From the NCBI GenBank assembly GCA_937125225.1, contig CAKZLE010000003.1, positions 1-64,000 of the forward strand: a stretch of DNA of 64,000 nt. Direction: 5' to 3'. Of this stretch, positions 1 through 35,349 are shown piece after piece (the first letter of the stretch is position 1; each line of letters opens with the position of its first letter). Source of the stretch: an uncultured Spirochaetia bacterium. GTDB taxonomy: Bacteria > Spirochaetota > Spirochaetia > CAKZLE01. Position numbers and translations under genes: made by a program. The notes beneath the pieces were generated by a model, which ran no database searches, was not told the origin of the DNA, and was given only the letters and a program-made list of their open reading frames with translations.

Positions 1-1185
1 TTGGAAGCTCGTGGATTGGAGATCGCATCCCTGGGAAAACAGAATGTGAAGGAACTCCTCCAAGATGCACCTCGTCCTTTGCAGGAGGTACTTGAACTCA
101 GGCTGCAGCTGGCAAAGTCATCGGTGAGGAAGTATCGTGCGATGATGAACGCGATCTGCCGTGATGGACGAGTACGTGGTATGTTTCAATTCTATGGGGC
201 TAATCGTACTGGGCGCTGGTCTGGAAGGCTCACTCAATTACAAAATCTTCCACAAAACCATCTGGAAGATCTTGAAGCTGCTCGAGATTTGGTCAAGTCA
301 GGTGACTATGAAGCGGTGAAGTTACTCTATGAAAATGTGCCTGATACGCTTTCTCAGCTCATACGTACCGCATTTATCGCTGCTCCTGATCATCGGTTTC
401 TGGTATCAGACTTCTCTGCCATTGAAGCACGGGTCCTATCGTGGCTTGCAGGAGAGACCTGGAGGATGGATGTCTTCAAAGATAATGGAGACATTTATTG
501 TGCTACAGCATCAAGGATGTTTGGGGTTCCGGTAGAGAAGCATGGACCCAATGGGCATCTCAGGCAGAAAGGTAAATTATCCGAATTGTCGAATGGTTAT
601 GGCGGCTCAGTGGGAGCACTCAAAGCTATGGGGGCTCTTGAAGCTGGAATGGCAGAAGAAGAACTTAAGCCTCTTGTTGATGCCTGGAGATCATCAAACC
701 CCCGGATCGTCAAACTCTGGGGGGATATTGATAAGGCAGCCTTAAAAGCCGTTAGGGAGAAAACCTCGACCTCAACCCATGGTATCAAATTCTCATGGCA
801 AAGCGCAGTTCTCTTTATAACCCTTCCCTCTGAAAGACGACTAGCATATGTGAAACCACGTATTGGAACCAATAGGTTCGGTGGATCTTGCATTACCTAT
901 GAGGGGATTGGGGCCACTAAGAAATGGGAGCGATTAGAAACATACGGGGCAAAGTTGGTGGAAAATATTACTCAAGGGATCAGCAGAGATCTGCTCAGCT
1001 TTTCAATGAAGAACCTCAGGAGTCACCGAATCTGTATGCATATACATGACGAAGTGGTCATTGAAGCTCCCGCTGATCAAGATCTTGTTGCAATCGAATC
1101 GATCATGAGCCTCACTCCATCATGGGCTGAAGAACTCCCGCTCAATGCAGATGGATACGAAACCAAATTTTATAAAAAGGATTAA
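1..1185 (+). CDS. Phage DNA polymerase A family, C-terminal polymerase domain (5' end outside window)
   Basis: Family A (Pol I-like) DNA polymerase that would replicate phage DNA. All three palm/finger motifs are visible in the 394 residues present: motif A DFSAIEAR with the metal-binding Asp near residue 137, the O-helix/motif B region around residues 188-205 (RQKGKLSELSNGYGG), and motif C HDE at residues 349-351. The frame is open to the first base of the window, and a family member is usually about 600 residues or more. The exonuclease-like N-terminal part therefore most likely lies upstream, and the TTG at position 1 is not a credible start. It is followed 3 bases later by a deoxyribosyltransferase-like gene in the same operon. 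The family call is firm; the full length is unknown. Confidence 0.93.
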   Translation: MEARGLEIASLGKQNVKELLQDAPRPLQEVLELRLQLAKSSVRKYRAMMNAICRDGRVRGMFQFYGANRTGRWSGRLTQLQNLPQNHLEDLEAARDLVKSGDYEAVKLLYENVPDTLSQLIRTAFIAAPDHRFLVSDFSAIEARVLSWLAGETWRMDVFKDNGDIYCATASRMFGVPVEKHGPNGHLRQKGKLSELSNGYGGSVGALKAMGALEAGMAEEELKPLVDAWRSSNPRIVKLWGDIDKAALKAVREKTSTSTHGIKFSWQSAVLFITLPSERRLAYVKPRIGTNRFGGSCITYEGIGATKKWERLETYGAKLVENITQGISRDLLSFSMKNLRSHRICMHIHDEVVIEAPADQDLVAIESIMSLTPSWAEELPLNADGYETKFYKKD

Positions 1186-1188
1186 CAC

Positions 1189-1623
1189 ATGGAAAATAGA
1201 AAATACAACGCAGAAGGATATAGAGATCTCACAGCTTATCATGCAATCAAGTCATTGGAAAAAAAGAGTCGACCACACTTTGCCTATCACCCAATGGTAT
1301 ATATTTGTTCCCCCTATGCTGGGAACGTAGCTGAGAACGTTAGGAACGCCCAACGATACAGCAGGTTTGCAGTGGATAAAGGATATCTACCGATTACCCC
1401 TCACCTCCTGTTCACCCAGTTTCTAGATGATGAACTGCGGAGCGAACGCGACCTTGGGATGTTTTTCGGGCTCGTGCTTATGAGTAAATGTTCTGAAGTC
1501 TGGGTGTTCGGTGACTATATTAGCTCAGGTATGAAAACCGAAATTGAAATTGCTCAGAGAAAGGGGTACAAAGTGAGTTTTTTTAGTGGTGATTGTATAC
1601 TATTTGATATACACTCTTCATAA
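1189..1623 (+). CDS. DUF4406/DUF7768-type nucleoside 2-deoxyribosyltransferase-like protein
   Basis: A 144-residue protein resembling the deoxyribosyltransferase-like domain often found in phage replication clusters. The pattern YICSPYAG near residue 43, followed by N..NA..Y..FA...GY.PI.PH and later W.FGDYISSGM..EI..A, is typical of that Rossmann-like fold. In the fold, the Ser-Pro loop and the late Gly-Met-Glu helix line the nucleotide pocket. Activity as a real nucleoside-modifying enzyme is inferred only. The gene begins 3 bases after the polymerase stop and belongs to the same transcription unit. The last 15 or so residues run into AT-rich sequence that marks the border with the inserted nuclease gene. 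Confidence 0.72.
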   Translation: MENRKYNAEGYRDLTAYHAIKSLEKKSRPHFAYHPMVYICSPYAGNVAENVRNAQRYSRFAVDKGYLPITPHLLFTQFLDDELRSERDLGMFFGLVLMSKCSEVWVFGDYISSGMKTEIEIAQRKGYKVSFFSGDCILFDIHSS

Positions 1624-1695
1624 TCATACGATTGATATAAAAATGGATGAGAGCAAACAAACAAAAATTTTGAAGCTATGTAAGGAGTAATTCCA

Positions 1696-3702
1696 ATGAA
1701 TACTGTGGAACTAAGATTTTTAGGAGCTATTGGTTCAGTCACCGGATCCTGTACACATATGAGATATCGCAATAGTAAAGGTGATGAATTAAACTATCTG
1801 ATCGATGCTGGAGTTTTACAGGGGGAAGTTAAAGGAGAACAGGCGGTATCTGAGATTGAATTGATCGCAAAAAAACTTGATGGTATCTTTATTACTCACT
1901 CACACATTGATCATATTGGGTTGATCCCTAAATTGATTGATAAAGGCTTCCAAGGTTTTATTTACTGCACACAAGCTGTAAAAGAACTGACAGGGGTTAT
2001 GCTGAAAGACTTTGTAAAAGTTAATAAGGATCTTCCATACTTTAATATATCACAATATGAAAAAATGAAATTCTTTATTGTTGATAGAAAAGATGATTTC
2101 CAGTTTGGCAAAACCATACATCCTATAGAAAACAATTTTAGATTCGGTTGTCTTCGTACTACTCATACACTAGGATCAGTAGCATACTATTTTCAGTATA
2201 AAGTAAATCCTGAAAAAGAAGATGTATGGAAGAAAGTCCATTTCTCTGGCGATCTAGGTCCTGTATCAGAAGAGGGAAAATCAACGCTAATTTCCAAGGA
2301 ATGGCAATATCCGTATTTCCAACAAGATGATGATTATTACATCCTCGAGTCAACTTACGGTAACCGTAAAAGATCTTTGAATTTTAATCCTAAAGCACGA
2401 ATCGAGAAATTGGAAGAAATTATCAGTGAAGCCATGGGGGAAGGAAAGCATATTATCATTCCTGTATTTGCTCAGCACAGAGCCCAAGAGGTCTTATTTG
2501 ATTTGCATCATATTCAACGAATTAAAAAACTCAGAGGGCCTAAATATATGGTCAACACACTAATTGCCCAGAATAGGCAGTTGAATTACCTGTGGGAACT
2601 TTCAGATGGTAGGACTTCATCTAAATCTTCTAATAAAAATAAAACCTGTTCATCCCAAAATATTAGCAAGATTCAGGAGATGATTAAATCAAAATGGAAT
2701 TCCGTTTATCCTGAAAAAGAATTACCTCTAGGTTCTTTACTAAAAGATTTAGATCATAATTTCTGTGTCGATATTATCAGAGAAATCAATATAATAAAAG
2801 AAACAGATGAACAAAGGTTTTTTAATATCCGTATCATGAAAGGGATTGTTCAAGAAGTTTCAAAGATATATCGGGATCAGCTTGATGATTGTAAAGAAAA
2901 TGAGCATGGTGAACTAAAATTCAAGTATCTTTCGAAAGACTTCATTGAGAAATTTAATCTTCATGATTCTAATGATGTAATTATACTGAAAAACATCTCA
3001 AAGGAAATCGAGACTTGTCTCTCTGAGGATCAAATCATCCAAAAAGATAAACTTGATAATAATAAATTTTTAAAAATTGGAACCCAAGTTTTCTTATCAG
3101 CTGCGGGTATGTGTGATGAGGGAGGTATGTTAGAGCTTCTTAAGCAATATCATAATAGAGATGATATGATCCTCTTATTAACAGGCTATCAAGCTATTGG
3201 TACAAATGGATACCTTTTAAAGAATCTCAGTAAAATGTCAGAACCCACTAAATTCAGGAAAAAACTGAATAATACGGATATCAGATTATCTGAAGTGAAA
3301 TTGGATATTATTGATATTTCTCCCTACTATTCTGGTCACTCAGATCAAGTACAACTAGGCGAATATATCTCTGGGGAAAAGCATTCTAAAATAAAGAATA
3401 CCTTTCGATCAAATATCTTTATCAACCATGGGAATGAAGAGTCCAGAGAATCTCTAAAAAAGCATATCGAATCATTGTCAGATAAGTATCATGTTGAGTT
3501 ACCAAAGCTTAATATGTTTTATAATTTATCGGATGGTACAATTTCTGCTCCAATCCCAATAAATGAAGGAGTGATAAAAACAGATTCTCTTGACCCTGAT
3601 GATAGTGAATATGATGTAAAACTTAAGATAAAAGATTCTGTACTTCTTTTCAAATCTCATGTTGATATTGAGTATATCAGGAATATCATAGAGATGTTAT
3701 AA
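1696..3702 (+). CDS. Metallo-beta-lactamase/beta-CASP family nuclease
   Basis: A 668-residue protein of the beta-CASP class of metallo-beta-lactamase nucleases (relatives of RNase J, CPSF73 and YSH1-like RNA exonucleases). The metal-binding signature THSHIDH lies at residues 67-73. A later H in TTHTLGS, the D in SGDLG, the beta-CASP motif LESTYGN and a C-terminal INHGNEES block complete the expected ligands. The middle (about residues 300-470) is a long charged insertion without recognisable domains. The start is chosen for the ribosome binding site TAAGGAGTAA just upstream. The gene is clearly richer in A and T than the phage genes on both sides and converges with the glycosylase-like gene at 3973, so the pair looks like acquired cargo. 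RNA processing, DNA cutting and phage defence are all possible roles. Confidence 0.85.
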   Translation: MNTVELRFLGAIGSVTGSCTHMRYRNSKGDELNYLIDAGVLQGEVKGEQAVSEIELIAKKLDGIFITHSHIDHIGLIPKLIDKGFQGFIYCTQAVKELTGVMLKDFVKVNKDLPYFNISQYEKMKFFIVDRKDDFQFGKTIHPIENNFRFGCLRTTHTLGSVAYYFQYKVNPEKEDVWKKVHFSGDLGPVSEEGKSTLISKEWQYPYFQQDDDYYILESTYGNRKRSLNFNPKARIEKLEEIISEAMGEGKHIIIPVFAQHRAQEVLFDLHHIQRIKKLRGPKYMVNTLIAQNRQLNYLWELSDGRTSSKSSNKNKTCSSQNISKIQEMIKSKWNSVYPEKELPLGSLLKDLDHNFCVDIIREINIIKETDEQRFFNIRIMKGIVQEVSKIYRDQLDDCKENEHGELKFKYLSKDFIEKFNLHDSNDVIILKNISKEIETCLSEDQIIQKDKLDNNKFLKIGTQVFLSAAGMCDEGGMLELLKQYHNRDDMILLLTGYQAIGTNGYLLKNLSKMSEPTKFRKKLNNTDIRLSEVKLDIIDISPYYSGHSDQVQLGEYISGEKHSKIKNTFRSNIFINHGNEESRESLKKHIESLSDKYHVELPKLNMFYNLSDGTISAPIPINEGVIKTDSLDPDDSEYDVKLKIKDSVLLFKSHVDIEYIRNIIEML

Positions 3703-3972
3703 GACCAGATTTGGGTTATATTCCCTCCCTGAAGAACTTCTCATAATTGTAAAGGTCTTCTGGGGTGTTTTCTATTCTTCTTATGGCGAAGTATCTACTG
3801 TGGAATGTCGATTTGTATAATTCATTAATGAGTAATACTACCCATTTTCTAGTCAAATTTAAAAATGCAATGACAACTATTTCACTTTAAGAAATCAAAC
3901 AAATGATGGGGTTGTCTAGTAACTGGGAATCTCTTTAATTCCTTTCACGTTTCTTAAGATTGATAAGAGCCC

Positions 3973-4785
3973 TTACATAATACTTTGCTGATATTCATGA
4001 ACCTTCAGTTGAATGAAGTTGATCACCTCCTCATTAGAAGGCATCTTGATTTGCGCTAATTCTTCACACTCTGTATTATGATGAGCCGATACGATATCCC
4101 GATATCTCTGAATTTCCTCTTCTGTATATTTAGCTTGTACCGTTTTTTTCTCAAATGCAGCTGGATGAGGTAAGTACATAATTGGAATCGATAATAACTC
4201 ACTTTGCCCATGAAGATATGTTTTCACATGAGATCCAATAGCTAAAATCAATGATGCCTGTGAAATTGATAACTTTTGATATAAAAACTTATCAGCACAA
4301 TAGTCTATAGCATCTTTAACCCCAAACTCTTTATTGGTTTTACAGTTAACGATCTCAGTCATGCAATAGTCTATACCAGGAATAGCTTTCCTGCCGATGA
4401 TTTCTTCTACTCGCTTTTGGATACTGCTCCAATACCTTACAGAATGACCCCGAGAACCATCTTTTAACAGAATTTTATGATTATAGGTCCAACTGTATTT
4501 AGGGCCTCTATCTAGAAAACGGTTTTTGAAGAAATCAGCAATCATAGCTTTTGGCCAACTATTGGTAGGGAATAGTTCTTCCGTTGTGAATGCAGGATTA
4601 GAACTAAGCACGAGTATAGGAGCCTTTAGAATATCACCATCCCAAGGTTCAGGGATCATGATATCATCACATGAATTTATGAAATCCAATTGATAATGAG
4701 AGATATAAAAACAAGGTCTATCATCTTTATAATTCTGTTTAAATGATGGACAGAAAGCAATATCAAATAATAGTTCAGGTACCAT
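3973..4785 (-). CDS. Uracil-DNA glycosylase-like superfamily protein (tentative)
   Basis: A 270-residue protein on the opposite strand to its surroundings. Two short blocks fit the uracil-DNA glycosylase fold: PILVLSSNPAF near residue 54, in the place of the family GxNPG loop, and YLPHPAAFEKK near residue 208, in the place of the HPS loop. Between them, SLILAIGSHVK resembles the central strand ending in a G-x-x-A/S segment. The usual catalytic Asp or Asn cannot be assigned with confidence, so DNA glycosylase activity is not claimed. The gene is AT-rich, converges with the beta-CASP nuclease across 270 bases without any gene, and is transcribed against the phage operon. That arrangement is typical of cargo carrying its own promoter. 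Confidence 0.5.
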   Translation of the reverse strand: MVPELLFDIAFCPSFKQNYKDDRPCFYISHYQLDFINSCDDIMIPEPWDGDILKAPILVLSSNPAFTTEELFPTNSWPKAMIADFFKNRFLDRGPKYSWTYNHKILLKDGSRGHSVRYWSSIQKRVEEIIGRKAIPGIDYCMTEIVNCKTNKEFGVKDAIDYCADKFLYQKLSISQASLILAIGSHVKTYLHGQSELLSIPIMYLPHPAAFEKKTVQAKYTEEEIQRYRDIVSAHHNTECEELAQIKMPSNEEVINFIQLKVHEYQQSIM

Positions 4786-4953
4786 AGTCTTCTCCTCATA
4801 AGTTATAAAATTGATTTAGTCTCATTCGCTCTTCTCATCAGCACAGGCCTTCTTAGTCTTATCAATCTCTGCTTTATCTACCACTATTATTGAGAGTATA
4901 TACCAATTATAGAGCAGGTTATCACATTAATCAAATTTTCTTCAAAAGCATGG

Positions 4954-4990
4954 GGGGTACGGTTTTTCGGTATTACATAGGAGGACCTAT
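4954..4990 (+). repeat. 37-bp direct repeat, copy 1 (leader with Shine-Dalgarno)
   Basis: These 37 bases are identical to 35313-35349. The unit starts GGGGTACGGTTTTTCGG and ends in a strong ribosome binding site, AGGAGG, followed by ACCTAT. Here it leads directly into the ATG of a 31-codon ORF at 4991; the second copy leads into the ATG of the HTH/zinc-finger gene at 35348. The identity stops at the start codon in both places, so this is a shared untranslated leader and not part of a duplicated gene. Confidence 0.9.
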
Positions 4991-5086
4991 ATGAATCAAG
5001 AACATACCGGAATAACCGGACGCATCATGCCACCTGCTCAGATGAGTGTGATGATCACCACGAATGACTTTGGAGGAACACTATGA
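4991..5086 (+). CDS. Small leader ORF, 31 codons, upstream of the antirepressor
   Basis: The ORF reads MNQEHTGITGRIM and ends NDFGGTL. It has a near-perfect ribosome binding site (AGGAGG, 5-6 bases ahead) inside the 37-bp repeat. Its stop overlaps the antirepressor start codon (ATGA at 5083-5086), so translational coupling is likely. No family is recognised. It may be a real small protein or a leader peptide that sets antirepressor translation. The strong start signals and the overlap are the evidence for translation. Confidence 0.6.
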   Translation: MNQEHTGITGRIMPPAQMSVMITTNDFGGTL

Positions 5087-5751
5087 AAGACGACAACAAC
5101 CGAGACCCACAATACATGGGGGATATGATCCCTATCTCCTATGAAACCGGAAAACCTTCGGTGCGAGGACGAGATCTGCACAGAGCACTGAGAATTGATA
5201 CTCCCTATAAAGATTGGTTCCCTAGGATGCTCAAATATGGATTTAGGGACGAAATAGACTTTAGCGCATTTTTGCGCGAAAGTACTGGGGGCCGTCCAAG
5301 TGTTGATCACTCTATCACAATCGCCATGGCTAAAGAACTTTGCATGCTTCAACGAAGTGAAATGGGGCGAGCTTTCCGACAATATTTTATTTCCATTGAA
5401 GAAGCCTGGAATAGTCCTGAAAAGATCATGGAGAGAGCATTACAGATTGCCCAGGAAAATGCTCGGAAAGCTGAGCAGAGGATCTGGGCTCTTGCTGATG
5501 AGAACGAAGTACTCGAGATCGCACTGAATACCTCTCTTCAATTCTACACCGTTGCTAAATACAACAAGGTATTCGCAAAGAACTGGAACCTTCGGCAGTG
5601 CCAAAATATCGGAAAGCATCTCTCTGCTTACTGCAGATCTCATGCTATTGAGATTCGTCCATGTAAAACCAATGATGAACGCTTTGGTACCGTTAATAGC
5701 TACCCTCTCACTGCTTGGGAGGATTATCAGGAGACCCTCTGTGAAATCTAA
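5083..5751 (+). CDS. Phage antirepressor, AntA/AntB type
   Basis: A 222-residue protein. Residues 15-105 match the AntA/AntB antirepressor domain: the R.LH..L.I.T.Y.DWFPRM..YGF..EIDF pattern is visible, followed by a DH.I...MAKE..M.QR...G...RQYFI.IE.A block. The rest has the K.FAKN...R...IGK segment and charged C-terminal part seen in KilAC-like partners. Antirepressors bind or titrate the lysogeny repressor and favour the lytic switch. The gene is translationally coupled to the 31-codon ORF before it and followed directly by the primase-helicase gene. Its leader is shared with the recombinase operon 30 kb away, which suggests joint control of induction and excision. Confidence 0.85.
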   Translation: MKDDNNRDPQYMGDMIPISYETGKPSVRGRDLHRALRIDTPYKDWFPRMLKYGFRDEIDFSAFLRESTGGRPSVDHSITIAMAKELCMLQRSEMGRAFRQYFISIEEAWNSPEKIMERALQIAQENARKAEQRIWALADENEVLEIALNTSLQFYTVAKYNKVFAKNWNLRQCQNIGKHLSAYCRSHAIEIRPCKTNDERFGTVNSYPLTAWEDYQETLCEI

Positions 5752-8107
5752 TATCAAAATAGCTGTCTGCAATCGAAAGACAGACAAAAAGTATAAAAAT
5801 CTTGAAATGACATGGGATGATATCATAACTCGTAATCGTAATCCCATTCGTACCACTGAAACCATAAAGGAGTATCCTAAGCTCTCGAAAGCTCGTCGCG
5901 ATGACGCAAAGGACCAGGGAGGCTTCGTAGGAGGCTGGCTTAAAAACGGGATCCGAAAGAATGGACATATCACCTGTCGAACACTTGGTACACTCGATGC
6001 TGATCATATCCCTGAGGGTGAAGACTTCATTGAGAAAGCATCTTCAGCATTGTCCGATCACACATACTTCATCTACTCAACCCATAGCCATACCCCTAAG
6101 AGTCAGCGCTACCGGATTGTGATCCTGTTTTCCAGGGAGGTGTCTGAGGATGAGTATCCGGCCCTCATGCGGATGATCGCCAAAGAGATCGGGATGGATT
6201 ATTTCGATGACTCCACCTATCAGGCGAACCGTATGATGTACTGGGCAAGCTGCTCTTCCAATGCAGACTTCTTTTTTACCGATCATCCTGGCACTCCTCT
6301 GAGCCCTGATGCATATCTTGCAAAGTACCAGGATTGGCGGGATGTCACGCAGTGGCCAACCAGCTCACGACAGTCTGAGGTGATCAAGAAATCTATCAAA
6401 GGGCAGCAGGATCCTCTCACGAAGGAAGGGGTTATTGGGGCTTTCTGTAGAACCTATCACCCGATCGATGAGGCTATCAGTACCTTTCTCTCTGATATCT
6501 ACGAACCCTCAGTGGTTGAAGGCCGATATGATTTTATTCCCGCTGATTCCAGCGCTGGAGTAGTCATCTATGATGACAAGTTCATTTTCTCTCATCATGC
6601 CAGTGATCCTGCATCTGGAAAGCTATTGAATGCCTTTGATTTGGTGAGGATCCACCTGTATGGAGATGATGATTCTAAGAAATCATACTATGCCATGGAA
6701 GATCAGGCCAGTAAGGATGAGCATGTCAAGCTGCTCATGGTAAAAGAAAAACAAGCTCATGCTTCAATGGAGTTCTCAGCAGAAGATGATGAGTGGAAAA
6801 AGAAGTTAGTATATGAACGACGAAGTACTGTAATACAAAATAGTGTATGGAATCTCAATTTAATTCTCAACAATGACGCTAATTTTGCTAATTTTGGTTT
6901 CAATGAACTTGCAGGACGCGTTCAGGTCACAGGGCCACTCCCATGGACCCGGCCTGAAGGGAATAGCTTCTGGAGAGATGCTGACACAGCACAAATGAAG
7001 TCTATGATTGATATTAATTACACCCCGTTTTCAAGTCGAAACTATGATGTCTCTTTTATGAAAGTAGTTGATGACAGGCGCTTTCACCCTATCGGCGATT
7101 ATCTTGCCGGGTTACCAGAATGGGATGGAAAGAAGCGAGTTGAGGATCTCTTCATCAGATACCTCCAGGCAGATGATACCCCGTATGTTCGGGCTGTGAC
7201 TCGGAAGACTTTTGCTGCTGCAATCGCCCGTATCTACCGCCCCGGAACAAAATTCGATAGTATTCCGGTTCTCGATGGAGAACAGGGTATAGGAAAGAGT
7301 TCCATAGTTAAGGATCTTATTCCCTCCCAGTATTACTCAGAAACGTTATCAATCACTGATATGAATGACAAATCGGGAGCTGAAAAGCTCCAGGGCTTCT
7401 GGATTATTGAAATCGGGGAACTTGCCGGTATGAAGAAAGCCGATATTGAGAAAGTGAAAGCATTCCTTTCCACCTCTGATGATAAGTACCGTCCAAGCTA
7501 TGGGAGATCAGTTGAGAGCCATCCTCGACAATGTATCATCATTGGCACCGTCAATGGTGAGCGTGGATACTTAAGGGATATCACAGGAAACAGAAGATTC
7601 TGGATCATAAAAGTACGACAGAAAGAGCAAAAAATCACGTGGAAATTTACTCAAAAAGATCGTGATCAGTTCTGGGCTGAAGCAAAGGTGATTTGGGAGT
7701 CAGGTGAAAAACTCTTTCTCGAGGATGATTTCATCCCAGAGGCAAGGCAAGCACAACAAGAGGCTATGGAGAGTGATGATCGCGGAGGACTTGTGAGAGA
7801 GTACCTCAATACACTACTCCCTAACAACTGGGATCAATTGGATCTTGGGCAACGTAGGGATTATCTATCTGGTTTCAATAATGGTGGGGGTACCATCAAA
7901 CGAGATGTTGTCTGCAATATGGCAATATGGTGTGAGTGTTTCGGTAAAGACCCTGCCACGATGAGAAAAATAGACTCGTATGAAATAGCTGCAATTATGC
8001 AAAAAATGGATAACTGGGGTAAATCAGAGAGGACAAACTTCCATATTTATGGACGACAGCGCTCCTATCGGTGGGCAACTATTGATGAGGGACAACCCCT
8101 AACTTAG
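5741..8107 (+). CDS. Phage primase-helicase: primase-like N-terminus fused to VirE/D5-type ATPase
   Basis: A 788-residue replication protein. Residues about 60-200 carry a primase-like domain (TLGTLDADHIP, then YSTHSHTP and RYRIVILFSR), like the N-terminal halves of phage and plasmid primase-helicases. The C-terminal half is a VirE-type P-loop ATPase with Walker A GEQGIGKSS near residue 513, EIGELAGMKKADIEKVKAFLS and an arginine-rich GNRRFW sensor block. GTG at 5741 was chosen as the start: it follows AGGAG at the proper distance and overlaps the antirepressor end by 11 bases. The frame is open further upstream, but that part lies wholly inside the antirepressor gene. A candidate origin lies directly downstream. 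Confidence 0.9.
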   Translation: MKSNIKIAVCNRKTDKKYKNLEMTWDDIITRNRNPIRTTETIKEYPKLSKARRDDAKDQGGFVGGWLKNGIRKNGHITCRTLGTLDADHIPEGEDFIEKASSALSDHTYFIYSTHSHTPKSQRYRIVILFSREVSEDEYPALMRMIAKEIGMDYFDDSTYQANRMMYWASCSSNADFFFTDHPGTPLSPDAYLAKYQDWRDVTQWPTSSRQSEVIKKSIKGQQDPLTKEGVIGAFCRTYHPIDEAISTFLSDIYEPSVVEGRYDFIPADSSAGVVIYDDKFIFSHHASDPASGKLLNAFDLVRIHLYGDDDSKKSYYAMEDQASKDEHVKLLMVKEKQAHASMEFSAEDDEWKKKLVYERRSTVIQNSVWNLNLILNNDANFANFGFNELAGRVQVTGPLPWTRPEGNSFWRDADTAQMKSMIDINYTPFSSRNYDVSFMKVVDDRRFHPIGDYLAGLPEWDGKKRVEDLFIRYLQADDTPYVRAVTRKTFAAAIARIYRPGTKFDSIPVLDGEQGIGKSSIVKDLIPSQYYSETLSITDMNDKSGAEKLQGFWIIEIGELAGMKKADIEKVKAFLSTSDDKYRPSYGRSVESHPRQCIIIGTVNGERGYLRDITGNRRFWIIKVRQKEQKITWKFTQKDRDQFWAEAKVIWESGEKLFLEDDFIPEARQAQQEAMESDDRGGLVREYLNTLLPNNWDQLDLGQRRDYLSGFNNGGGTIKRDVVCNMAIWCECFGKDPATMRKIDSYEIAAIMQKMDNWGKSERTNFHIYGRQRSYRWATIDEGQPLT

Positions 8108-8286
8108 TTTGTCCCGTAGCTGTCCAATAGGATAATTCCTGATACTAGAAGTAACAACGAGGGCTGAGGACAACTGGACAAAAACCTCTATATAGAGCTT
8201 ATAGCTTATAAATAAAGGGGATTTGAGTGTGTATATACCCATATACGCGCGTATAGGGATTTTTCGTCCATTTTGTCCTGTTGTCC
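8089..8286. other. Candidate phage replication origin: GGACAA/TTGTCC iterons around an AT-rich core
   Basis: The hexamer TTGTCC or its complement GGACAA occurs six times in under 200 bases: 8090-8095, 8168-8173 and 8176-8181 as GGACAA, and 8109-8114, 8273-8278 and 8281-8286 as TTGTCC. A near-copy CTGTCC is at 8120. The two inner pairs are both spaced 8 bases start to start and face each other across an AT-rich segment. That segment holds the palindromes CTCTATATAGAG (8186-8197) and TATACGCGCGTATA (8242-8255). Nearly all of this lies between the primase-helicase and the next gene, where phages often place an origin. Function is inferred from layout only; an operator for the downstream genes is the alternative. 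Confidence 0.5.
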
Positions 8287-8304
8287 CAAAGGAAAAGAAA
8301 AGAT

Positions 8305-8808
8305 ATGGGAAGTACTCAATATATCGCAAGATGCCAAAAACGATTGAGAGCTCTTGGAGCACCTGATATTGGATGGAGGTGTATGTCTATCTATGATTAT
8401 GAAACTGACAGCTTCACCTGTGAGCTCTGTGGATGCTCTAGAGTTAGATATATCCATGTGATGAAGCATCCTGAGTTCTCTGAATTGTTAAAAGTGGGAT
8501 GTATCTGTGCAGGTGTTATGGAAGGAGATATTCTTGCGGCTCAACAACGTGAAAGAGAAGCAAAAAACAAAAGCAGGAGAAAATCCTACTACCTGAAGAA
8601 ACCTTGGAATGCGATCTCTGAAAACCGATGGGAGATCACGCATCGTAAATTACCCCTGGCAATTGAGCGTTGCAGTTTCAGAGGTCATGAATACTACAAT
8701 CTTGATATCGATGGAGATTGTTTCCACTGGATGGATAACCGAAGGATGACATCATTTCTCACTGCACAACATTATGCATTTAACCTGATGGAGGAATATT
8801 ATGCGTGA
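8305..8808 (+). CDS. Conserved phage protein with zinc-finger-like cysteines, function unknown
   Basis: A 167-residue protein of a type common in phage replication clusters. Its N-terminal third has CELCGCSRVRYIHVMKHPEF followed by VGCICAG, four or five Cys plus His that would fit a single zinc site. The C-terminal half is rich in aromatic and basic residues (KKPWN, W.DNRRM). ATG 8305 is preferred over the in-frame TTG at 8281 because AAAGGAAAAG sits about 8 bases ahead. The gene ends 8 bases inside the VRR-NUC gene, so the two are probably coupled. A role in single-strand DNA handling would be a guess. Confidence 0.75.
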   Translation: MGSTQYIARCQKRLRALGAPDIGWRCMSIYDYETDSFTCELCGCSRVRYIHVMKHPEFSELLKVGCICAGVMEGDILAAQQREREAKNKSRRKSYYLKKPWNAISENRWEITHRKLPLAIERCSFRGHEYYNLDIDGDCFHWMDNRRMTSFLTAQHYAFNLMEEYYA

Positions 8809-9082
8809 AAAAACACTAGAACAGCAGCTGGTAAAAGCTGTGAAACATACAGGAGGCCGGGCGGTGAAACTCGTGAGCCCCGGCTTTGATGGGATGCCTG
8901 ACAGGCTAGTACTCTTCCCACTCGGGAGGATTGCCTTCGTAGAAGTGAAAGCACCAGGGAAGAAGCCCAGGCCCTTACAGGTAGCCCGGCATGAGATGCT
9001 ACGAGATCTTGGCTTCAAGGTCTTCGTTATCGATTCGACTGAACAGATAGGAGAGATGCTTGATGATATATTCACCACATGA
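8801..9082 (+). CDS. VRR-NUC domain nuclease
   Basis: A 93-residue stand-alone VRR-NUC protein, a small PD-(D/E)XK nuclease fold found in phages and in the Fan1 family. The diagnostic residues are visible: an early E in LEQQLVKAVK, G.PDR near residue 30, FVEVKAPGKK near residue 48 (the E-x-K catalytic pair) and the following Q in RPLQVARHEML. Such enzymes often cut branched DNA such as Holliday junctions. The gene overlaps the neighbours on both sides, which fits a recombination module with the helicase downstream. Confidence 0.93.
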   Translation: MREKTLEQQLVKAVKHTGGRAVKLVSPGFDGMPDRLVLFPLGRIAFVEVKAPGKKPRPLQVARHEMLRDLGFKVFVIDSTEQIGEMLDDIFTT

Positions 9083-10436
9083 TTACCAGAAATATGCAAC
9101 CGAGTTCATTGAAGATCATGAGATCTCAGCGGTCTTGCTGCAGATGGGTTTAGGAAAAACTATCATCACCCTCACAGCATTGATGAATCTTCTCTTCGAC
9201 TCATTCAAGATCAGGAAAGTCCTGATCATCGCCCCACTTAGGGTTGCCCGTGATACTTGGCCTGCTGAGATCCTCAAATGGGATCATCTAGAGATGCTCA
9301 TATCATCAGTGGTAGTCGGCACTCATGCTGAAAGGATGAAAGCATTACAGGATCCTGCAGACCTCTACATCATTAACCGCGAGAATGTGCAGTGGTTGAT
9401 CGAGAAAAGCGGTGTGGCCTTTGATTACGATATGATCGTTATTGATGAACTCTCCTCATTCAAGAACCACCGGTCAAAACGATTCAAAGCGCTCATGAGA
9501 AAGCGACCGTTGGTTCAGCGTATCGTAGGATTGACCGGAACCCCTGCAAGCAATGGACTGATGGATCTGTGGGCTCAGTTTAAACTCCTTGATATGGGAG
9601 CACGGCTCGGGAGGTTCATCACCGCTTATCGTGAAACCTACTTTTCCCCTGATAAAGGCAATGGCCACATCATCTATAGCTACAAACTAGCACCGAGATC
9701 AGAAGAGAAAATCTATGAGGCGATCAGTGATATCACGATCTCGATGAAAGCGACTGATCACCTGCAGATGCCAGAACTCATCAACACCGTATATCCGGTA
9801 TCTCTGAGTTTTAGAGAGGCCGCAGCCTACCGAAGACTGAAAAAAGACTTAGTCTTGAATCTGGGGGAAGATCAGATCACCGCCTCTAATGCAGCAGTGT
9901 TATCGGGGAAACTCCTGCAAGCTGCTAATGGTGCGGTCTACAACGATGATGAAGAGATGGTTATCCTCCATGATCACAAACTTGATGCTCTAGAGGATAT
10001 CATTGAGGCAGCTAATGGGAATAGCCTCCTGGTAGCCTATTGGTTCAACCATGATCTGATACGCATCACTGAACGCCTGGATAAACTAAAGATCCCCTAC
10101 TCCTGTTTAAAATCGAGTAAAAGTATCAGAGATTGGAACGAAGGGAATCTTCAGATAGGCCTGATCCATCCAGCATCTGCCGGACATGGGCTCAATCTCC
10201 AAAGCGGAGGAAATCGCATGGTATGGTTCTCTCTGACCTGGAGTCTAGAACTCTATCAGCAGACGGTTGCACGACTCTGGCGTCAAGGTCAGCAGTCTGA
10301 GACGGTGGTAGTGCAGCATCTCATCACCAAGGGAACTATTGATGGGAAGGTCATGCAGGTGTTATCAGGAAAAGCTAAAACACAAGATGCCTTAATTGAT
10401 GCAGTGAAAGCAGAACTTGAAGGAGATGCAGCATGA
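9063..10436 (+). CDS. SNF2/DEAD-type phage helicase
   Basis: A 457-residue superfamily 2 helicase of the SNF2-like phage type. Walker A is QMGLGKT near residue 28, the Walker B/DEAH position reads VIDELSSFKN, motif III is LTGTPASNG, and motifs V-VI are HGLNLQ and QQTVARLWRQGQ. ATG at 9063 is preferred over TTG 9060; either way the start lies inside the VRR-NUC gene. Pairing of VRR-NUC with a SNF2 helicase is a recurring phage replication/recombination cassette. DNA translocation on branched intermediates is the likely job. Confidence 0.93.
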   Translation: MIYSPHDYQKYATEFIEDHEISAVLLQMGLGKTIITLTALMNLLFDSFKIRKVLIIAPLRVARDTWPAEILKWDHLEMLISSVVVGTHAERMKALQDPADLYIINRENVQWLIEKSGVAFDYDMIVIDELSSFKNHRSKRFKALMRKRPLVQRIVGLTGTPASNGLMDLWAQFKLLDMGARLGRFITAYRETYFSPDKGNGHIIYSYKLAPRSEEKIYEAISDITISMKATDHLQMPELINTVYPVSLSFREAAAYRRLKKDLVLNLGEDQITASNAAVLSGKLLQAANGAVYNDDEEMVILHDHKLDALEDIIEAANGNSLLVAYWFNHDLIRITERLDKLKIPYSCLKSSKSIRDWNEGNLQIGLIHPASAGHGLNLQSGGNRMVWFSLTWSLELYQQTVARLWRQGQQSETVVVQHLITKGTIDGKVMQVLSGKAKTQDALIDAVKAELEGDAA

Positions 10437-10654
10437 GTGATAACAATATGAAACAACTGGTAGTAGCCATTATCAATCAAGCAGTAAAGGACTGGGAAAA
10501 AGCGGATAAGCAACTCACTACGAACCCAACCTATCGTCAGGCTCTACGAACGAAACAAGAGATCAGTGAGTTCTTCCAGGGAGACTGGTATTTCTTTCTG
10601 TGTGATCTCAACCCTGACTTTGTGCATCAAAACTTACAGGAGCAGTATGTATGA
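10433..10654 (+). CDS. Small conserved phage protein, function unknown
   Basis: A 73-residue protein that overlaps the helicase stop by 4 bases (ATGA) and ends 4 bases inside the regulator gene, so it is fully embedded in the operon. The sequence is mixed helical with an aromatic patch (FFQGDWYFFLCDLNPDF). Similar small ORFs sit beside late regulators in many siphophages. No catalytic motif or membrane segment is visible. Confidence 0.7.
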   Translation: MSDNNMKQLVVAIINQAVKDWEKADKQLTTNPTYRQALRTKQEISEFFQGDWYFFLCDLNPDFVHQNLQEQYV

Positions 10655-11061
10655 CGGTAAAAGAATATTTATCCCAAGCCCTCTATCTTGATAAAAGGCT
10701 CAGGACCAAGGAGAAGCAACTCGACTGGTTGAAGGATCATTCAGTCTATGTTTCTTCTGAGCTCTCTGATATGCCCAAGAGCTCAAGGGCTCATCGATCT
10801 GCATTAGAAGAAGCTGTGGTAAAAATAGTGGACTTGGAAACCGAGATTGCTATTGGTATTGCTGAGCTCATGCAGCTGCAGAGCAGTATCGCTCAGGTGA
10901 TTAGGTCTACCAACAACATGGAGTGTGAAACTATCCTTGAGATGCGATACCTCACGTTCATGAGTTGGGAAGACATCACCGTACAGCTAGGATACAGCCA
11001 AAGCTATATCTATCATCTGCACCGAAGAGCCTTGTCGTTAGTGAGAGTTCCTGCAGCATGA
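10651..11061 (+). CDS. RinA/ArpU-like (DUF1492-type) late transcription regulator
   Basis: A 136-residue protein. The first two thirds are predicted coiled helix, and the C-terminal 50 residues look like a sigma-70 region 4 helix-turn-helix (MRYLTFMSWEDITVQLGYSQSYIYHLHRRAL). This is the pattern of the RinA/ArpU/LtrC-like late activators of Gram-positive phages, which switch on packaging and structural genes. It is the last gene of the early operon. Immediately downstream are two copies of a promoter-terminator unit carrying a tandem 10-bp repeat, a plausible target. The activator assignment rests on domain and position; binding is inferred. Confidence 0.8.
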   Translation: MTVKEYLSQALYLDKRLRTKEKQLDWLKDHSVYVSSELSDMPKSSRAHRSALEEAVVKIVDLETEIAIGIAELMQLQSSIAQVIRSTNNMECETILEMRYLTFMSWEDITVQLGYSQSYIYHLHRRALSLVRVPAA

Positions 11062-11064
11062 GCT

Positions 11065-11179
11065 TAACGTTAAAATGTCAGAAAATAACAGTTGATAACA
11101 GTTGGCCCTTTATACTATGGTAAGATCAGAAAAGAATAACCAACGAGCTCAAGGAGATTTCACTCCCTGGGCTTTTTTT
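11065..11179 (+). promoter_or_regulatory. Late control unit, copy 1: repeat-activated promoter with immediate terminator
   Basis: A 115-base unit, 111 of them identical to 11290-11404. It contains a perfect tandem repeat ATAACAGTTG at 11085-11094 and 11095-11104, then TATACT at 11111-11116 as a candidate -10. The -35 position is occupied by the repeats instead of TTGACA. About 30 bases past the expected start lies an intrinsic terminator: stem 11146-11156 with 11163-11173, 10 of 11 pairs, loop ATTTCA, then seven T. The layout fits an activator-dependent late promoter whose transcripts stop at once unless antitermination acts. Confidence 0.6.
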
Positions 11180-11289
11180 GCGTCAGATCAAGTGATCAGG
11201 GCATTCTCCCATGAATCAACCTTTCTCCCAGTTAGGTACCTATTATGGGAGATACCTGATGAAGGCACTCCATGGTATCAGTTAAGACA

Positions 11290-11404
11290 TAACGTTAAAA
11301 TGTCAGAAAATAACAGTTGATAACAGTTGGTACTTTGTACTATGGTAAGATCAGAAAAGAATAACCAACGAGCTCAAGGAGATTTCACTCCCTGAGCTTT
11401 TTTT
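11290..11404 (+). promoter_or_regulatory. Late control unit, copy 2: repeat-activated promoter with immediate terminator
   Basis: This is the second copy of the unit, offset by exactly 225 bases. The tandem ATAACAGTTG repeats are at 11310-11329, the candidate -10 is TGTACT (11336-11341), and the terminator stem is 11371-11381 with 11388-11398. One of the four differences between copies changes a G-T pair to an A-T pair and strengthens this terminator. The HNH gene starts 19 bases after the T-run, so every packaging transcript starting here must pass the terminator. Confidence 0.6.
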
Positions 11405-11422
11405 ACGCACGAAGGAGATCTC

Positions 11423-11782
11423 ATGCCCTACAAACCAAAGAAACCCTGTGCGTATCCTGGTTGTCCCAGACTTACCCACGATCGGTATTGCGTGGAGCAT
11501 ACAAAGCTGACAGCAAGGACCTATGAACGATACCAAAGGGATCCTATGACTAAGAAACGCTATGGTGCTGCATGGAGAAAGATCAGACGGAAGTATCTTG
11601 AGGAACACCCCACCTGTGAGTTGTGTAGACGAGAGGAAAGAGTGACTCCTGCAAAGATAGTTCACCATATAAAACCATTGAGTGAAGGAGGGAGTAATGA
11701 TGAGGAAAATCTCATGGCACTCTGCAAATCCTGTCATTCACACCTTCATGCAAAGCAAGGTGACCGATGGAAGAATATATAG
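11423..11782 (+). CDS. HNH endonuclease of the packaging module
   Basis: A 119-residue HNH nuclease. An N-terminal zinc-like cluster (CAYPGCPRLTHDRYCVEH) precedes the HNH core: CELCRRE, HHIKPLSEGGSNDEENLMALC and CKSCHSHLH. The HH, N and H residues of the beta-beta-alpha metal finger are all present. Phage HNH proteins next to small terminases support specific cleavage of cos ends. The gene is preceded by AAGGAGAT and is the first gene of the late operon. Confidence 0.93.
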   Translation: MPYKPKKPCAYPGCPRLTHDRYCVEHTKLTARTYERYQRDPMTKKRYGAAWRKIRRKYLEEHPTCELCRREERVTPAKIVHHIKPLSEGGSNDEENLMALCKSCHSHLHAKQGDRWKNI

Positions 11783-11838
11783 ACACCATATATATGGTGT
11801 ACTTACCTAGGGGTATGCAATTCTCTACACCATATATA
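11783..11838. promoter_or_regulatory. 18-bp perfect palindrome plus half-site before terS (candidate cos or operator)
   Basis: ACACCATATATATGGTGT at 11783-11800 is a perfect 18-base palindrome that begins right after the HNH stop. A half-site, ACACCATATATA, follows at 11827-11838. Cos sites of HNH-containing HK97-type phages usually lie just before the small terminase gene, so this is the obvious candidate. A transcriptional operator would look the same. Confidence 0.4.
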
Positions 11839-11921
11839 GCATACAACGTGCAAGGGCAATTACGCACAAAAACAGGTATTCAAAGGGGGGATTGACCCCC
11901 ATTCTTAGGAGGCAACCCAGC

Positions 11922-12458
11922 ATGGCAAAAGACGGTACGAACCGAGGCGGAGCTAGAGTTGGTGCGGGGAGAAAACCTAAAGCACTGACTGAGAAACTAG
12001 GCGCTGGAAAGCACGCGATCATTTTTGATCTTCCTAGAGCTCCTGATCTTGCAGGTGTCGAGATGCCACCAGTGAAAGATTACATGACTGCAGTCCAAAA
12101 GAACGGTCAGGATTTCTGTGCTAAAGAAGTCTATGAAGAGACCTGGAACTGGCTTAAAGATCGACGGTGCCAAGACCTAGTGAGCCCTCAGATACTGCAA
12201 CAGTATGCGATGTCTGTAGCTAGGTGGATCCAATGTGAACGGGCAATCAGTGACTTTGGATTTCTTGCTAAGCATCCAACAACCGGGGCTGCAATCTCTT
12301 CTCCGTATGTGTTGATGAGTAGAGAATTTATGAAGCAAGTCAACCAATGTTGGTATCAAATATTTCAGATCGTTAAGGAGAATTGCTCTTCTGATTTCCA
12401 AGGAGAAACTCCCCAGGATGACCTGATGGAACGACTCTTAAAAGCACGAAAAACCTAA
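11922..12458 (+). CDS. Phage terminase small subunit, P27 family
   Basis: A 178-residue small terminase. The basic N-terminus GGARVGAGRKPKAL is typical of P27/TerS proteins. The rest is helical and ends with an acidic tail. TerS recognises the packaging site and hands DNA to TerL. ATG 11922 follows AGGAGGCAAC; the longer in-frame ATG at 11892 lacks such a site. The gene is separated from TerL by MetK, the methyltransferase and DUF4314, which is an unusual split of the terminase pair. Confidence 0.88.
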   Translation: MAKDGTNRGGARVGAGRKPKALTEKLGAGKHAIIFDLPRAPDLAGVEMPPVKDYMTAVQKNGQDFCAKEVYEETWNWLKDRRCQDLVSPQILQQYAMSVARWIQCERAISDFGFLAKHPTTGAAISSPYVLMSREFMKQVNQCWYQIFQIVKENCSSDFQGETPQDDLMERLLKARKT

Positions 12459-35312: not shown

Positions 35313-35349
35313 GGGGTACGGTTTTTCGGTATTACATAGGAGGACCTAT
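35313..35349 (+). repeat. 37-bp direct repeat, copy 2 (leader with Shine-Dalgarno)
   Basis: These 37 bases are identical to 4954-4990. The last two bases overlap the start codon of the HTH/zinc-finger gene (ATG 35348-35350). Because the match ends at the start codon, the shared element is a leader. It lies just after a terminator, so a promoter inside or immediately before the repeat would be required here unless readthrough occurs. Confidence 0.9.

Follow-up and report, generated by a model that had tools for sequence, protein, structure and literature searches.

The window, i.e., the whole stretch of 64,000 nucleotides that was analysed, is the start of a 121-kb contig (C3) of a spirochaete genome, and roughly its first 39 kb correspond to a prophage with genes for a DNA polymerase A, a DUF7768 protein, an AntA protein, a primase/helicase, a terminase, a portal protein and tail proteins (the structural genes being named by eye) as well as two tandem serine recombinases. 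On the forward strand, the prophage opens with the 3' part of the phage family-A DNA polymerase gene (1-1185, the contig starting at window position 1; PF00476, E 2.8e-21), next to which stands a DUF7768 or nucleoside 2-deoxyribosyltransferase-like phage gene (1189-1623; PF24963, E 8e-43; phrog_355, E 3.5e-36). The latter is the left neighbour of an AT-rich cargo slot of about 3.35 kb (1605-4950), delimited by synteny, empty-site alignment and GC content, the right neighbour being an AntA-domain antirepressor gene (5083-5751, forward strand; PF08346, E 2.3e-21; phrog_5817). The cargo consists of two genes, namely (i) on the forward strand, a gene for a 668-aa long-form beta-CASP metallo-beta-lactamase (MBL) nuclease, predicted to be of the RNA type from its domains (PF10996, PF00753 and PF07521), motifs and Foldseek matches (1696-3702), and (ii) on the reverse strand, gene B, for a 270-aa putative protein of the uracil-DNA glycosylase (UDG) superfamily, remotely Brig1-like as judged from motifs, hhalign, Foldseek and a homologue in the phage contig L002 (3973-4785). 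By their ORF coordinates, the two genes lie tail to tail with an intergenic stretch of 270 bp between them (3703-3972). An earlier note on this DNA had described a convergent AT-rich pair inside a co-directional phage operon, between a deoxyribosyltransferase-like gene and an antirepressor, and the ORFs, the GC content and the DUF7768 and AntA flanks confirm it. As homologues at 30-65% identity exist elsewhere for each of the two ORFs, the pair is no mere chance occurrence. No intrinsic-terminator-like hairpin was found in the 270-bp stretch, nor any terminator in the slot as a whole, promoter-like sites in the slot are not enriched (21 against 16.7 in shuffles, sd 3.8), and no Rfam family was found within window positions 1-40000.

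The slot has a GC content of 0.335, compared to 0.448 in the remainder of the prophage, and no other phage window of 3,346 bp falls below 0.386 (mean 0.449, sd 0.024). A polymerase scan retrieved 80 related IMG/VR phages, eight of them at 72% polymerase identity, and the order polymerase - DUF7768 - (AntA) - primase/helicase - VRR - helicase is retained in the eight nearest. The slot is empty in five of these eight (L030, L031, L032, L034 and L036), with 170-200 bp from DUF7768 to AntA, where the eight contigs do not amount to eight independent phages, since L030 and L032 are identical and the members of the pairs L031/L034 and L033/L037 agree to about 96%. In L033 and L037, the slot measures 2.2 kb and holds a trypsin-like protein (PADLOC LmuA, 1.9e-6) together with a 334-aa protein; in L035, it measures 5.5 kb and holds an Mrr_cat endonuclease (3.6e-14), an AAA_13 ATPase (5e-59) also matching the PADLOC candidate PDC-S06 (3.6e-41), and a 475-aa protein. 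The exchange of cargo between near-identical phages is directly visible, L033 and L035 having backbones 95.6% identical outside the slot and unrelated cargo within it. Several unrelated genes in mixed orientation occur in the slots of other phages too, and the sister-phage cargo is also AT-rich, with a GC content of 0.348 where the locus has 0.475, and of 0.353 where it has 0.443. The suggestion that the pair is horizontally acquired cargo is supported.

The site presents the features of a prophage defence hotspot, i.e., the same flanks, different or no cargo and candidate defence genes within the cargo. Known prophage anti-phage hotspots (P2/P4 and others) measure about 1-5 kb, are flanked on either side by a conserved phage gene and show a high turnover of their genes (PMC9122126). 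The slot resembles those of the P2/P4 type in its small size, its conserved phage-gene flanks and its high turnover (PMC9122126), but differs from them in that it belongs to another phage group, lies in the replication module, from DUF7768 to AntA/primase, and carries cargo that is candidate for defence. No description of such a slot in this phage group and at this position was found in the literature. Given that the slot is empty in relatives or filled otherwise, with Mrr and AAA_13 genes or an LmuA-matching gene, and that unrelated cargo sits on 95.6%-identical backbones, an anti-phage role is the likeliest one for the cargo. The defence setting proposed in the earlier note is likewise supported by the candidate defence genes found at the same place in related phages.

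Regarding the borders of the slot, the left junction of the cargo falls where DUF7768 ends (about 1605), and its right junction, at about 4950, directly precedes a conserved leader, GGGTACGGTTTTTCGG, which borders the slot in the nearest relatives as well, two of these differing by a single base. At this right edge lies a 37-bp leader repeat, GGGGTACGGTTTTTCGGTATTACATAGGAGGACCTAT, comprising a GGTACGGTTTTTCGG core and a Shine-Dalgarno sequence (4954-4990, forward strand), of which a perfect second copy is present at 35313-35349. This second copy precedes a 139-aa ORF that adjoins the two serine recombinases, and the GGTACGGTTTTTCGG core is also met at the slot edge of related phages, upstream of a Shine-Dalgarno sequence and an ORF. 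The 37-bp repeat could serve as a leader element or, where modules are exchanged, as a linker for recombination. No direct repeat of at least 9 bp is shared by the two edges of the slot. Elsewhere in the prophage, two 118-bp direct repeats with 96% identity are found at window positions 11065-11182 and 11290-11407.

The nuclease is composed of MBL, beta-CASP and RMMBL domains (Pfam). Its HxHxDH motif reads H68-S-H70-I-D72-H73, and the residues D37, H68/H70/D72/H73, H157, D186, E218, H548 and H578 are invariant across 10 sequences. At the sequence level, the active site is thus conserved, in agreement with the earlier description of a full beta-CASP nuclease with intact HxHxDH, and all seven motifs are retained. 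Motif C is a histidine (H578), a residue typical of RNA-processing beta-CASP members, in contrast with the valine of the DNA-processing ones (PMC3095777); this rule is a correlation, as a Val-to-His change left the selectivity of SNM1A unaltered (PMC7458816). With motifs 1-4, A and B and the histidine in C, the protein bears the whole signature of the RNA-type group. For the AlphaFold model, with a pLDDT of 66 overall and of 80-94 in the greater part of the MBL core, the nearest structures returned by Foldseek are all RNA nucleases, namely aCPSF1, CPSF73, Ysh1, Cas14 and TTHA0252, and no SNM1/Artemis structure figures among the top 50. Both motif signature and predicted structure thus support a preference for RNA. 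The idea of a DNA degrader, put forward previously, did not hold up against this RNA-type signature (motif-C His; nearest structures CPSF73, aCPSF1 and Cas14), which also makes it unlikely that the nuclease cuts abasic DNA produced by a glycosylase.

Compared to its ordinary relatives, the nuclease exhibits a 94-residue insert (288-381) and a C-terminal extension, common to only two other spirochaete genes found, namely (i) in genome G257, a lone chromosomal gene with 34% identity over the whole length, and (ii) in genome G530, a long-form beta-CASP gene that two insertion sequences have disrupted (L184:7152-12096). A profile of the insert matched ten Spirochaetia genomes, of which the window genome, G257 and G530 are real cases; the other seven are weak matches from a single further genus (E about 6e-4 to 1e-3), and the two of them that were read are elongation-factor-G-like and were dismissed as fortuitous. 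Outside of these genomes, searches with the nuclease gave only partial matches in phages (six fecal phage records), no place covering 80% of the query in plasmids, nothing in the pattern scans of IMG/VR for the family and no match in PADLOC. With respect to known enzymes, the nuclease is akin to the RNA-type aCPSF1/FttA, CPSF73 and TTHA0252 by its seven motifs and nearest solved structures, and departs from them by the insert at 288-381 and the C-terminal extension. Cas14 is its best NCBIfam match (E 3.6e-49, beta-CASP part), but the score of 167.6 bits is well below the cut-off of 800 bits and, unlike in type VII, the gene neighbours phage genes without Cas5, Cas7 or a CRISPR array; on account of this score, of the neighbours and of the lack of CRISPR-like repeats in window positions 1-12000, a type VII CRISPR system was discarded. 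The HamM/Avs1-type MBL nucleases resemble nucleases of DNA-uptake pathways and are paired with a protease (PMC12799240). The window protein shares with them an MBL nuclease domain and a defence setting, and a sister-phage slot holds a trypsin-like gene; unlike them, it is a beta-CASP protein of predicted RNA type with no protease partner. A gated MBL nuclease-protease pair, which calls for a neighbouring trypsin-like protease fused to a defence enzyme, was rejected, as no protease lies beside the window nuclease.

Gene B has no match in Pfam, PF03167 included, or in PADLOC. Three partly independent lines nonetheless converge on the UDG superfamily, i.e., (i) profile-profile alignment with hhalign, where P is 3.3e-4 to family-4 UDGs and 6.4e-3 to SMUG1-like ones, against 0.4 to UNG and 0.47 to an unrelated beta-CASP control, that is, no signal, (ii) a PDB profile search with the UDG 1ui0 as best match (E 0.053), and (iii) a Foldseek search of the PDB, where the first 31 matches are all UDGs (E from 2.6e-4), the best ones being 1ui1, 1ui0, SMUG1 and 4zbx. 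Against viral models, Foldseek gave weak matches, several of them named uracil-DNA glycosylase. As the model used is poor (mean pLDDT 42) and its TM-scores to UDGs reach only 0.3-0.5, the fold assignment is an agreement of weak signals, which together support a UDG-superfamily fold. The UDG-like character noticed earlier in this 270-aa protein is hence supported and a UDG fold is likely, the lack of which would, according to the earlier note, have made a joint system unlikely.

In the positions of the superfamily catalytic motifs A and B, gene B carries SSNP (N63) and HPAA (H207), respectively. SSN63P and H207P are invariant and in the same order in three sequences at 30-65% identity, with a TE(I/V)V-x-CK segment between them. 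The probable fold and the alignment of TEIVxCK with the family-4 TNIVKCR bring the protein close to family-4 and SMUG1-type UDGs. From family 4 proper, it differs by the lack of a PF03167 match, by a score of 12.7 bits to TIGR00758 against a cut-off of 125, by SSNP/HPAA instead of GEAPG/HPS and by unconserved Fe-S cysteines, C148 being the sole invariant cysteine against four in the spirochaete family-4 set.

Homologues of gene B were found in the IMG/VR phage contig L002 (65% identity; 5977-6819) and in Treponema berlinense (30-36%), a member of the same class as the window genome. No further one was found in 393 and 395 genomes of the phylum and class or in phage or plasmid records; 50,697 phages and 72,556 plasmids gave nothing in tblastn, be it with gene B or with its homologue from Treponema as the query, and a degenerate pattern of the motifs hit only the L002 contig and, by chance, L111. 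In L002, an unrelated phage, the homologue resides in a cargo-like stretch (3663-7702) with DUF4145, DUF413 and DUF2971 genes, and directly adjoins the DUF2971 gene (PADLOC candidate PDC-S31, 1.5e-11). In T. berlinense (L004:2179-14658; homologue at 8586-9260), the upstream side holds an ADP-ribosylglycohydrolase gene and a Schlafen AlbA_2 gene at a distance of 4-5.5 kb, and the downstream side a GmrSD_N-HNH gene at about 4 kb.

The best NCBIfam match of the L002 homologue is NF047634, antiviral_Brig1 (E 9.7e-4), residues 50-202 aligning to model positions 46-193 over 150 collinear residues. The score of 18.7 bits is far below the equivalog cut-off of 230, which the L002 homologue does not reach, and the window copy has no match to the model at all; hence, the sequences point to a remote relationship to Brig1 rather than to membership. 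By comparison, six ordinary spirochaete UDGs gave no match to the Brig1 model at E<=10, and a search of 296 spirochaete genomes with it disclosed no intact gene. Gene B also shares with Brig1, Brig2 and Brig3 the probable UDG-superfamily fold and a similar length. Brig1 and Brig3 belong to defence islands and have an ADP-ribosyl glycohydrolase close by (PMC11078745, PMC13160076), a likeness seen in the T. berlinense homologue with its ADP-ribosylglycohydrolase gene about 5.5 kb away. In contrast to Brig1, besides the gap in score, gene B is carried in a prophage slot and its glycosylase role is a predicted one.

Altogether, we give about an even chance to a reading in which the pair currently occupies a defence-cargo slot flanked by the DUF7768 and AntA/primase genes. 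Its members, one a base-excision gene resembling Brig and the other an RNase gene, would be independent genes of the defence type and would guard the lysogen, hence the prophage, against other phages. Gene B would be expressed in the lysogen, which is probable as its strand is opposite to the lytic operon, and its product would be a divergent UDG-superfamily DNA glycosylase acting like Brig1, i.e., flipping out a base that is non-canonical or modified and excising it from the DNA of incoming phages, so that the resulting abasic sites would block phage replication. The 668-aa protein would be a beta-CASP nuclease that cleaves RNA, probably in the role of an RNase effector, and whose insert and C-terminal segments could house regulation or targeting. 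The anti-phage function, base excision from modified DNA, the RNase-effector role and the independence of both genes are what we infer from the context and likenesses described above.

A first alternative, which we deem unlikely, involves no defence at all: gene B would be an ordinary repair glycosylase for uracil or hypoxanthine in the phage genome, and the nuclease would ensure RNA turnover for host takeover. Such roles are consistent with the predicted UDG-superfamily fold and with the nearest beta-CASP structures being mostly RNA-processing housekeeping enzymes, but five of the eight nearest phages live without both genes, which makes them dispensable, gene B is oriented opposite to the lytic operon, the sister phages fill the slot with Mrr/AAA_13 or LmuA-like genes, and the host genome already encodes three PF03167 UDGs. 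A second alternative, improbable to the same degree, only concerns gene B, which would be a UDG-fold DNA-binding or damage-sensing protein devoid of glycosylase activity (UdgX-like or regulatory). The replacement of the family-4 GEAPG/HPS by SSNP/HPAA and the lack of conservation of the four family-4 cysteines, with C148 alone invariant, would suit it; on the other hand, N63 and H207 have been kept at the motif A and B positions across 30-65% identity, and Brig1 is active with a glutamate where related enzymes often carry an asparagine (PMC11078745).

Less probable still is a two-component defence system, where the glycosylase would mark or sense modified DNA for a beta-CASP effector acting on DNA, as the earlier note had it, or, abortively, on RNA. 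A nuclease paired with a recogniser is a common defence design, and here both genes entered the same slot of the same phage, are adjacent and match in GC content (0.330 and 0.353). Against it, the genes are convergent and, 270 bp apart, form no operon, a mixture of several unrelated genes on both strands is met in other slots too, and an RNA-type nuclease is ill-suited to cutting at abasic DNA. Moreover, gene B has no beta-CASP neighbour in L002 (65% identity) or T. berlinense, and the long-form nuclease has no gene B alongside in G257 or G530, so that the homologues are never together elsewhere, as far as two relatives of gene B and two of the nuclease can tell, an outcome that the earlier note had itself named as making a joint system unlikely. 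With neither recurrent adjacency nor a DNA-type nuclease, the joint nuclease-glycosylase system envisaged in the earlier note was rejected as unsupported, and a slim chance is kept for it because the numbers of compared loci are small. Slimmer still is the chance that, outside the Brig1 family, gene B stands for a rare and new branch of anti-phage glycosylases directed at a modified base of its own, and works as a DNA-base sensor together with the long-form beta-CASP protein, an RNase effector that would abort infection by cleaving RNA upon abasic sites.

Should the two genes indeed be independent defence genes, Brig-type base-excision immunity would extend, in a much-diverged form, to spirochaete prophages, and one could test which DNA modification of phages is targeted, in a clade for which few phage defences have been described. 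The slot, a compact and exchangeable site in a phage group present in many IMG/VR contigs, is also a hunting ground for undescribed defence genes. Two of the proteins encoded there, of 475 aa (L035:4075-5502) and 334 aa (L033:11732-12736), match nothing in Pfam, PADLOC or NCBIfam and are further candidate defence genes.
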